Shown here: piece after piece, positions 39,409 to 42,093 of the stretch
Position numbering within the stretch: position 1 is the stretch's first letter
How the letters are laid out: every line of letters starts with the position of its first letter
Assembly: GCA_947169915.1 (NCBI GenBank)
Contig: CAMVRN010000003.1
Location: 1 to 64,000, forward strand
Origin: an uncultured Candidatus Saccharibacteria bacterium
Lineage (GTDB): Bacteria > Patescibacteriota > Saccharimonadia > Saccharimonadales > Saccharimonadaceae
DNA length: 64,000 bases
Direction: 5' to 3'
Translations under genes and position numbers: made by a program
Notes under the pieces: generated by a model
What the model was told of the DNA's origin: nothing
The model's input: only the letters and a program-made list of their open reading frames with translations
Database searches by the model: none

Positions 39409-40128
39409 TTAGTATCCGCGGACGTATTGTTCAAGAGTCATGTTATTGTCCGTAATGTCGTGAGCGTCCTTGGCGAAACCGACGAAACGGATTTCGTAGG
39501 GTTCGCTTGGATAACCGGTGATAGATTCTTTGCCGGCAGGATAGCGCTCGATAAAGCCGTAATCGGGTAAGGTTTCGTAGATAATCTCGACAATCGGGAA
39601 TTCCTCGCGACGCTCAGGAGTGATGGTATACCAGATGGGAACACCATCAGAATCTGGCAGGAGAACCATGAAGTTAATCAATAGTCCTGTGTGATGCTCC
39701 GAGAGGCCAGGGAGGGCGACATTGTTTGTTTCGCTCCATCCCTCTAGATTGGAGTAATAGTCGTAGACCCATTGTTGGTCTGCACGTGTGCGATATGCGC
39801 TGTAGAGGCCAATACAGACGCCATTTTTCATTAAATCATATTGAAGTTCAGCAAAGGCGTACGCGGCGGCTCTTTCGACTAAGGTCGGGTCTCCGTTAAT
39901 ATCGGGTATTGCAATCAGGTCCGCTTGAAGAGCGGTGGCATAGTCGGCGTCAAAATCGTACGGATTTTCATCGTTTACTATCTGAAGATAGTCGCGACTC
40001 GGGTTCATGAGAGACACGAATTTGTCATCATACGGTTCTTCTTCGGCATGGACAGCTCCAATGGCAAAAACAAATACGAAAAGTAGGATACAAGAAATTA
40101 ATCGTGCTATACTGTTCCTTTTAGCCAT
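39409..40128 (-). CDS. Secreted VanY-like (M15) protein with altered metal site
   Basis: A 239-residue protein with a signal peptide (about 1-28) and an M15B D-Ala-D-Ala carboxypeptidase-type domain: YSAYRTRADQQWVY, ALPGLSEHHTGLL, DYGFIERYPAGK and EPYEIRFVG in the usual order. Of the three zinc ligands only His145 (in SEHHTG) remains; the Asp position is Asn152 and the second His (usually EPWH) is Glu212. The catalytic Glu209 is kept. It may be inactive, use another metal, or only bind wall peptides. ATG 40128 follows AGGGGGTG. Confidence 0.82.
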   Translation of the reverse strand: MAKRNSIARLISCILLFVFVFAIGAVHAEEEPYDDKFVSLMNPSRDYLQIVNDENPYDFDADYATALQADLIAIPDINGDPTLVERAAAYAFAELQYDLMKNGVCIGLYSAYRTRADQQWVYDYYSNLEGWSETNNVALPGLSEHHTGLLINFMVLLPDSDGVPIWYTITPERREEFPIVEIIYETLPDYGFIERYPAGKESITGYPSEPYEIRFVGFAKDAHDITDNNMTLEQYVRGY

Positions 40129-40197: not shown

Positions 40198-42018
40198 CTA
40201 AACTGATTTTCTGAGTGCTTTGCAGTTTGCCTCAAGACGTTCTGCGAAGGCCTCTTTGGCTTCTGGATAGTTGTCGTTATTTCCTTTCCAGGCTTCTAAT
40301 GCTGGGCCTTGGAGCGCGCGCGCAAATGAGAAAGTGACTGGCCACGGGAAAGGACCATTGTTGGTAACTTCCTGGAGGTTTTCGGTTGCCTGCTCTGGGG
40401 TCTGTCCGCCAGAAAGGAAGACGACGCCTGCGAGGTCTTTGGGTACGAATTTAAGCAATGTTCTTGCGGTCCATTTACCAACTTCTTGTGGTGTTGACTT
40501 GGATTCGTACTGTTTTCCGGCAATAATCATGTTGACTTTAAGAATTGTTGCTTTTAAATCGACTTTCTTGCGTTCGAGTTCGGCGAATAGTTCGCGAAGG
40601 ATAATTCCAGTGACGCCTGCGCAATGCTCAATTGGGTAATCGCCATCGAAAACTACTTCTGGTTCGACGATTGGAACGATGTTCGCATTTTGACAAGCAA
40701 GGGCGTAATCGGCAAGGATTTCTACGTTTTTATAGACGGCGTTTTTGGTTGGGGTTTTATGGGTAATCTCAAAAGCGGCGCGCCATTTTGCGAAGCGGAG
40801 GCCCATGTCGAAGTATTCTTCGAGTCGTTCTGGAAGTCCAGAAAGACCTAGGGTGTATTTTTCGGTGGAGCTAGGCATATTTGCGAGACCCTTGTCGACT
40901 TTGATGCCAGGAATGATACCTTTCGATGTGAGATATTTTACAAAATCGCGACCGTCGTCGGCGAATTGACGTGCGGTTTCATCAAACAAGATAACGCCGT
41001 TGACGTAATTTTCGAGCCCCTCAGTCGTAAAGAAGAGATTACGATAATCGCGTCGGTGGTCATAGTCGTCTGGGATATTCATTGATTCGAACTTTTTGTG
41101 AATTGAACCGCCAGATTCGTCGGCGGCAAGAATACCCTTTCCGTTCCCGACTAGTTGCTTTGCCATTTGGCGAAGATTGATGATGTTCGAGCGCGCCTCA
41201 GAAGCAAGGTCTTCAAGTCCATCCATAGATAGCGACGAATCGAGCTTGGAATTTTCAACGTTGATTTTGGCCATAAGTAGTGAATCCTCCTCGGATTTAT
41301 TATTTAGTATTGAACCTAAAATGGTAGCGGAAATAATAGAGTAAATCGTTAGATGCGTGAACATCTCTGTCTTTTCGAGCTTACGGAATTTTATTTCACA
41401 TTTATCTGACACGATGCTTGATTCGGAGATGAGGTAAGTTTTGGCCTTAGTATTCTTCTCAGAGATTTTATGGTCGGTAAAGATGATGTTCGCACGTTTC
41501 AGGAGAGGCTCAACGGTTTTTGAAATGCGCTTTGGCGCGTAGAAAGCGAATCTTAGAGATTTTTGACCATCTAGGAAGGCTATGAGCTCCTCGACGGTGG
41601 TCTTGGAAAGGATGGCCGAGCGGTCAACGAAAAGCCAATCATAATCGTCGGAAATGGATGACGCTTGGAATACAGTAGAGCGTCTTTCGCTTGGTGTTAG
41701 ATAGGAAATTTGGTTGCCAGCGCAGAGGATGTAACGATAGTTCGCGGCGTTAATAAAGGAAGAAGCAAAATCTTCCGATTCTGGAGCGATATTTGAGCCG
41801 TAGATTTCGGCTTCGAAACCGAGATTTTTTAGAACTTCAAGGGTAACAATAGCGCCGGAGTAGAAACTACTGCGACTATAGAATTGATGAGAGGAACCAT
41901 TAAAACCGAGATTAAGCCATTTTGTTCCGTTTTGGTCAATTTCGAGGGCTTCTTGTCTTTCATTAAGGCGGAGATAGATATCTTTTAAGATGTTGCCCAC
42001 GATAAGAATTTTGTTCAT
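40198..42018 (-). CDS. Fusion: degenerate PfkB-like kinase domain + class I fructose-bisphosphate aldolase
   Basis: A 606-residue fusion. Residues ~1-265 resemble the ribokinase/PfkB fold (ILIVGNILKDIYLRL start, late FTHLTIYSIISATILGSIL helix), but the DTxGAGD catalytic motif is absent, so it is likely non-catalytic. Residues ~270-606 are a complete class I fructose-1,6-bisphosphate aldolase: GILAADES (295-302), KWR (411-413), VEPE (451-454), Schiff-base Lys494 in ILKVN and LSGGQ (535-539). The aldolase acts in glycolysis. ATG 42018 is leaderless behind TGC-TATAAT. Confidence 0.9.
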   Translation of the reverse strand: MNKILIVGNILKDIYLRLNERQEALEIDQNGTKWLNLGFNGSSHQFYSRSSFYSGAIVTLEVLKNLGFEAEIYGSNIAPESEDFASSFINAANYRYILCAGNQISYLTPSERRSTVFQASSISDDYDWLFVDRSAILSKTTVEELIAFLDGQKSLRFAFYAPKRISKTVEPLLKRANIIFTDHKISEKNTKAKTYLISESSIVSDKCEIKFRKLEKTEMFTHLTIYSIISATILGSILNNKSEEDSLLMAKINVENSKLDSSLSMDGLEDLASEARSNIINLRQMAKQLVGNGKGILAADESGGSIHKKFESMNIPDDYDHRRDYRNLFFTTEGLENYVNGVILFDETARQFADDGRDFVKYLTSKGIIPGIKVDKGLANMPSSTEKYTLGLSGLPERLEEYFDMGLRFAKWRAAFEITHKTPTKNAVYKNVEILADYALACQNANIVPIVEPEVVFDGDYPIEHCAGVTGIILRELFAELERKKVDLKATILKVNMIIAGKQYESKSTPQEVGKWTARTLLKFVPKDLAGVVFLSGGQTPEQATENLQEVTNNGPFPWPVTFSFARALQGPALEAWKGNNDNYPEAKEAFAERLEANCKALRKSV

Positions 42019-42055: not shown

Positions 42056-42079
42056 AAATACCCCGCTCAAGGAGCGGGG
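42056..42079 (-). terminator. Intrinsic terminator of 42094-42681
   Basis: CCCCGCTC-AAG-GAGCGGGG (42061-42079), followed by a short U-rich stretch on the minus strand. Confidence 0.8.
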
Positions 42080-42093
42080 TGGGGAGGGAGGGG

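Follow-up and report, generated by a model that had tools for sequence, protein, structure and literature searches.

A predicted PfkB-fold pseudokinase fused to a class I fructose-bisphosphate aldolase in Saccharibacteria and kept where the aldolase has been lost

The DNA analyzed here (the window, 64,000 nucleotides) comes from an uncultured Candidatus Saccharibacteria bacterium (contig CAMVRN010000003.1 of assembly GCA_947169915.1). Its minus strand carries an open reading frame in which a predicted pseudokinase domain precedes a class I fructose-bisphosphate aldolase (Table 1). The frame extends from an ATG at 42018 to a TAG/TAA stop at 40200-40198, and many stops interrupt the plus strand across the same interval. 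A TATAAT sequence at 42030-42025, immediately 5' of the ATG, and a terminator-like hairpin between the upstream gene and the fusion gene suggest that the latter probably begins its own transcript, although both elements are consensus matches only. The gene directly downstream encodes a VanY-type D-alanyl-D-alanine carboxypeptidase (39412-40128, minus strand; PF02557, E 3.3e-18). An assembly artefact, a chimera or a sequencing error was considered as the source of the fusion and rejected, given that full-length fusions are found in most genomes of the genus.

Table 1. Features of the fusion gene and its surroundings (positions in the window)
Feature	Position	Strand	Basis
Whole ORF, pseudokinase-class I fructose-bisphosphate aldolase fusion	40198..42018	minus	606 aa; full-length relatives in genus
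N-terminal PfkB/ribokinase-fold pseudokinase domain (predicted), residues 1-274	41197..42018	minus	fold match; homology to intact Saccharibacterial kinases; catalytic motifs absent
Class I fructose-bisphosphate aldolase domain, residues 282-602	40213..41175	minus	PF00274, NF033379, PDB matches
Schiff-base lysine K494	40537..40539	minus	invariant in alignment of 18 full-length fusions; catalytic-residue check
T221-H-L-T-I-Y-S227, stretch in place of the GAGD loop	41338..41358	minus	catalytic Asp column = Ser227
Arg95	41734..41736	minus	column comparison, pseudokinases vs intact kinases
D132-R133-S134 motif, new in the pseudokinase	41617..41625	minus	column comparison
K12-D13	41980..41985	minus	D13 is the sole sugar-site residue retained from kinases; K12 new
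Terminator-like hairpin between upstream gene and fusion ORF	42060..42080	minus	consensus match only

The C-terminal half is a complete class I fructose-bisphosphate aldolase with predicted cleavage activity, as an earlier note on this DNA had proposed when it named Lys494 as the Schiff-base residue. PF00274 matches residues 282-602 above its cut-off (E 2.9e-107, 358.9 bits), NF033379 reaches 399.4 bits over the domain against a cut-off of 250, and all seven catalytic residues are retained (D300, K373, K411, E452, K494, S536 and R567). The likeness to class I aldolases extends over the full domain and the whole active site. Unlike them, the window protein has an N-terminal pseudokinase, and it is without the C-terminal Tyr tail found in vertebrate aldolases.

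The N-terminal half is a marker domain with no assigned function that is invisible to databases. No Pfam or NCBIfam model matches residues 1-274, and searches of Pfam, NCBIfam and PDB sequences with the single sequence and with profiles of 19 and 102 sequences gave no meaningful match; PF00294 matches neither the window domain nor any of 102 relatives. An AlphaFold2 model of the isolated domain was built from degenerate sequences only (alignment A3), which keeps the test of the fold independent of the intact kinases. The model is of high quality (pLDDT 92.4, pTM 0.91), and its top Foldseek matches are ribokinase-family structures, including ketohexokinase, ribokinase, KDG kinase and PfkB phosphofructokinase (E about 1e-11). 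The VIA comparison gives Z scores of 19-20 across residues 1-276, with about 245 residues aligned. As modeled, the domain has the ribokinase/PfkB fold that the earlier note had ascribed to the first ~265 residues; a model with some other fold, which the note had named as the refuting outcome, was not obtained.

The motifs that define this kinase family are missing. The earlier note was right that the domain holds no GAGD, and the loss extends in all of the roughly 130 relatives of the window type to the NxxE and TDGxxG motifs and to the sugar-binding Asn, whose column is Val or Ile in the pseudokinases. The segment that holds the nucleotide in relatives is shortened or missing in the window domain, together with the NxxE (Mg/phosphate) and TxGxxG (nucleotide) motifs, and the pseudokinase domain is about 60 residues shorter than an intact kinase. 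This pattern of loss makes a kinase role very unlikely and marks the domain as a predicted pseudokinase. When the order was searched with a profile of the degenerate domain, intact kinases bearing RTGAGDA, NREEA and TDGPxGSYAS were reached, and hhalign of 102 degenerate against 16 intact sequences aligned the whole domain (columns 3-273; probability 99.6, E 1.9e-23). By these alignments the window domain and the intact Saccharibacterial PfkB kinases (the A4 set) are of common descent. The two share fold, ancestry and an aldolase as gene neighbor; the intact kinases keep GAGD, NxxE and TDGxxG, whereas the window domain has none of them.

The stages between these two forms are still found among living relatives. 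In other families of the order, the gene immediately before an intact kinase encodes a class II fructose-bisphosphate aldolase. For the window family, gene order in most genera sampled runs from a class II aldolase through a PfkB kinase of a second type to an A4-type intact kinase, the last with an N-terminal extension or a separate gene. Many Saccharibacteria have a helical domain of ~170 aa, without a Pfam match, fused before or encoded beside the intact PfkB kinase (L091 1030-1530; L095 2140-3372; L102 351-887). Homologues with an intact GAGD, which the earlier note had proposed to seek, exist as fusions in the sister genus g22 (L097, L109-L111), where a kinase with every motif is joined to a class I aldolase. 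The fused kinase of g151 (L112) is half decayed, with GAGD kept and NxxE and TDGxxG lost, and in the window genus (g1) as well as g24, g20, g34, g133 and g138 it is wholly degenerate. Both g22 and g151 still carry a class II aldolase elsewhere in the genome; none was found when it was looked for in g1.

The aldolase tree fits this succession. A split with support 100 separates all of the fused aldolases, as a single clade, from 30 stand-alone sequences of the phylum, and the g22+g151 clade (support 100) branches before the degenerate fusions, within which support is low in places. In a 380-genome sample of the phylum, class I aldolases outside the window family (f1) have frames of normal length, so none of them is fused. 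The comparison of gene order, motifs and trees shows the historical steps from neighbor genes to fusion to predicted kinase death. An ATP-dependent PfkB sugar-phosphate kinase, clustered in other Saccharibacteria with a class II aldolase, was joined once to a class I aldolase, and the lineage of the window genus then lost the ATP, magnesium and catalytic motifs, together about 60 residues. In g34 (L117, L118, L088) the pseudokinase is still shrinking, with whole frames of 567-610 aa. A lone class I aldolase of 360 aa (L124, in G325 of g167) falls within the fused-aldolase clade and has apparently shed its pseudokinase, the sole such case seen in the family.

The window genus comprises many MAGs, those with titles mostly from ruminant guts. 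The N-terminal domain is present in 163 of its 174 genomes (107 of the 110 of good quality), and the fusion is the commonest state, with about 150 genomes. Fifteen of the 163 domain-bearing genomes have lost a working aldolase, by deletion or decay, and kept the pseudokinase; the opposite case, an aldolase without the N-terminal domain, was not seen among genomes of the genus, an asymmetry of 15 to 0. Eight of the fifteen have a free-standing pseudokinase that ends at the domain boundary (G005, G473, G448, G524, G277, G516, G472 and G510), and no aldolase remnant was found beside these copies. The other seven retain an aldolase part whose active site is no longer intact (G222, G274, G284, G460, G462, G491 and G554). 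These aldolase halves (L217-L220, L099, L105, L106), possible pseudo-aldolases, remain in frame with the pseudokinase, and most are without the Schiff-base Lys. In the domain tree, which has modest support at some nodes, aldolase-less copies form only seven clades in the genus. Parsimony gives eight changes, the eighth being G396 of g24, in which a free-standing pseudokinase is followed directly by a class II aldolase gene. Some apparent cases were set aside: contig ends truncate the fused fragments in G004 and G015, and the splits in G011 (a run of N) and G547 (a frameshift) resemble errors of sequence or assembly and were left out of the loss count.

Substitution rates agree with retention. 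The pseudokinase is under strong purifying selection, as strong as that on the aldolase, with dN/dS of 0.022-0.13 in close pairs, no higher than for the aldolase; distant pairs (dS over about 1), for which the ratio is unreliable, were left out. Values between free-standing copies are 0.033 and 0.080, and the value where the aldolase has decayed is 0.077. The decayed aldolase part of G222 and G462 itself has a dN/dS of 0.11 over its first 110 codons, and it too may still act as a structural part.

A new set of conserved residues accompanies this constraint. Arg95 is present in 131 of 131 pseudokinase domains, where all 16 intact kinases have Trp, His or Tyr. D132, R133 and S134 are found in 108, 103 and 106 of the 108 fused domains of the genus and g24, and each in 16 of 16 aldolase-less domains. 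The pseudokinase-wide set that differs from the kinase residues comprises R95, K12 (Thr/Ser in kinases), D132-R133-S134, T221-H222 and E255; D13, which we take to be the equivalent of ribokinase Asp16, and N253 are retained from kinases. All signature residues stand at 15-16 of 16 in the aldolase-less copies. From the topology of the ribokinase fold, the new conserved positions would lie at strand ends lining the sugar pocket. The early-branching genera share R95, K12 and D13, and in them H222 is absent and D132 only partly present, which indicates that the full set arose after kinase death.

The explanation that best accommodates these findings, and a probable one, is that a kinase-aldolase fusion gave rise to a dead kinase that has been kept as a noncatalytic module, a sensor or a scaffold, with some partner in addition to the aldolase. 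This additional partner is invoked because aldolase-less lineages keep the domain unchanged. The old active-site cleft would now carry the new conserved set (K12, D13, R95, D132-R-S, T221-H, S227 and N253/E255), and the domain would most likely bind either a protein partner or a small anionic metabolite, sugar phosphates and triose phosphates being examples. It may in this way have a sensing or scaffolding part in central carbon metabolism, and where the two are fused it would tether the working aldolase or tune it. The genus keeps an intact PfkB kinase of the second type, exactly one in 160 of 170 genomes, and this probably made the loss of kinase activity tolerable. The domain is kept in G005, G473 and G491, where no other PfkB and no aldolase were seen, so neither enzyme is a necessary companion of the domain.

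The history of the domain, the exchange of aldolases in G396 and the adjoining triosephosphate isomerase (TPI) gene suggest a connection with glycolysis or triose phosphates. In many genomes the TPI gene divergently adjoins the pseudokinase gene (L212-L216 and other loci). TPI was found in 13 of 13 tested genomes that keep the domain without a working aldolase and is missing in G254 and G283, both of which are without the domain; adjacency alone accounts for part of this co-occurrence. Of 13 tested genomes that have no working aldolase, 8 gave no match to glucose-6-phosphate isomerase (PGI, PF00342), suggesting loss of upper glycolysis in them (G005, G524, G277, G516, G472, G510, G460 and G284). 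A link between domain retention and PGI was rejected, as PGI is present in some aldolase-less genomes and no rule emerges. A more far-reaching proposal, for now tentative, is that a ribokinase-fold domain that was once a glycolytic kinase took on a new role in Saccharibacterial carbon metabolism, either as a regulator that binds a ligand or as an enzyme, and outlived its aldolase in a genus of gut episymbionts that retains it almost universally.

Two other accounts are each rather unlikely. The domain could serve the aldolase only, in cis, as a folding, oligomerization or allosteric domain; this would suit the predominance of the fusion, the intact aldolase active site and the different aldolase that adjoins the pseudokinase in G396. 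It accords poorly with the eight genomes that have the domain and no class I aldolase in a genus where class II was not found, and with the seven further genomes in which the aldolase active site is broken. By the same retention, sensing for the fused aldolase cannot be the only role of the domain, which limits the sugar-phosphate sensor of the earlier note and leaves room for sensing with another partner. A new enzyme that uses H222, D132, R95 or K12 for catalysis on some phosphorylated metabolite has a comparably small chance of being the answer: polar residues at the pocket-lining strand ends are 95-100% conserved and different from the kinase set, and the domain is retained without the aldolase, but a few copies have R, K or D in place of H222, the early-branching ones are without it, and no known relative of the fold has such an activity.

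That the domain is a functionless, decaying relic carried by the aldolase is highly improbable. The loss of all catalytic motifs and of about 60 residues would be expected of a relic, but dN/dS is 0.02-0.13 in close pairs and equal to that of the aldolase, the domain stands alone with a clean C-terminus in eight genomes (dN/dS 0.03-0.08), and the asymmetry of loss runs against it. Purifying selection and this asymmetry together lead to the rejection of a simple relic, a term used in the earlier note; the residue set that is absent from intact kinases and the survival of the domain after aldolase loss point the same way. The "decayed bifunctional enzyme" suggested there holds as to descent from a kinase-aldolase, of which the g22 fusions are examples, and finds no support as to decay. 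Least credible of all is a kinase still working without the GAGD aspartate, since D13 and the fold are kept but GAGD, NxxE, TDGxxG, the sugar-site Asn and the nucleotide-holding segment are all absent.

The finding touches on the workings of glycolysis in Saccharibacteria, where it proceeds in the absence of a classical phosphofructokinase. These bacteria are usually reported to lack this enzyme (PMC6031116, PMC8386444, PMC7304191), in agreement with the earlier note, and a search for a PfkA-type kinase in the window's own genome found none. The sole intact PfkB kinase of that genome (G000:C5:15470-16255; L026, L225) is a candidate phosphofructokinase of the genus. It adjoins ribulose-phosphate epimerase, RpiB and GAPDH-like genes, and its orthologue in sister genera is flanked by the class II aldolase on one side and the other PfkB kinase on the opposite side. 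In TM7x, the PfkB-type TM7x_02415, of either the A4 or the second PfkB type, lies in an operon with an aldolase and has been proposed as a phosphofructokinase (PMC12815258).

Kinase-aldolase fusions of the IolC type and PfkB proteins without kinase activity are already known. The IolC-type 5-dehydro-2-deoxygluconokinase/aldolase (NF047869) and the KDPG aldolase/sugar kinase fusions (NF041633) likewise combine, within a single polypeptide, a PfkB kinase with an aldolase that acts at the adjacent step. They differ in using other aldolase families and an intact kinase, whereas the window protein combines a PF00274 aldolase with a predicted dead kinase. On the intact relatives their models score well below the cut-off and cover the kinase half alone, and the window protein falls outside the IolC type by its C-terminal PF00274 domain and its missing kinase motifs. 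The plant proteins FLN1 and FLN2 have the PfkB fold without fructokinase activity (PMC9698557) and are subunits of the plastid RNA polymerase complex (PMC3409070). The window domain has the PfkB fold in common with them, and its inactivity is predicted from motif loss. The FLNs differ in retaining the motif as a GSGD/ASGD variant and in having no attached aldolase, and their origin is independent of that of the window domain. In the open-licence literature searched, no report of a PfkB-class I aldolase fusion, a Saccharibacterial pseudokinase or its free-standing form was found.

Pseudoenzymes are usually met as isolated end states. Here the neighbor genes and the active, half-dead, dead-but-indispensable and free-standing stages are all extant, which opens the origin of a pseudoenzyme to stepwise study. 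TM7x, with no known copy of the pseudokinase domain, is a cultivated relative in the family for which genetic tools exist (PMC12815258).
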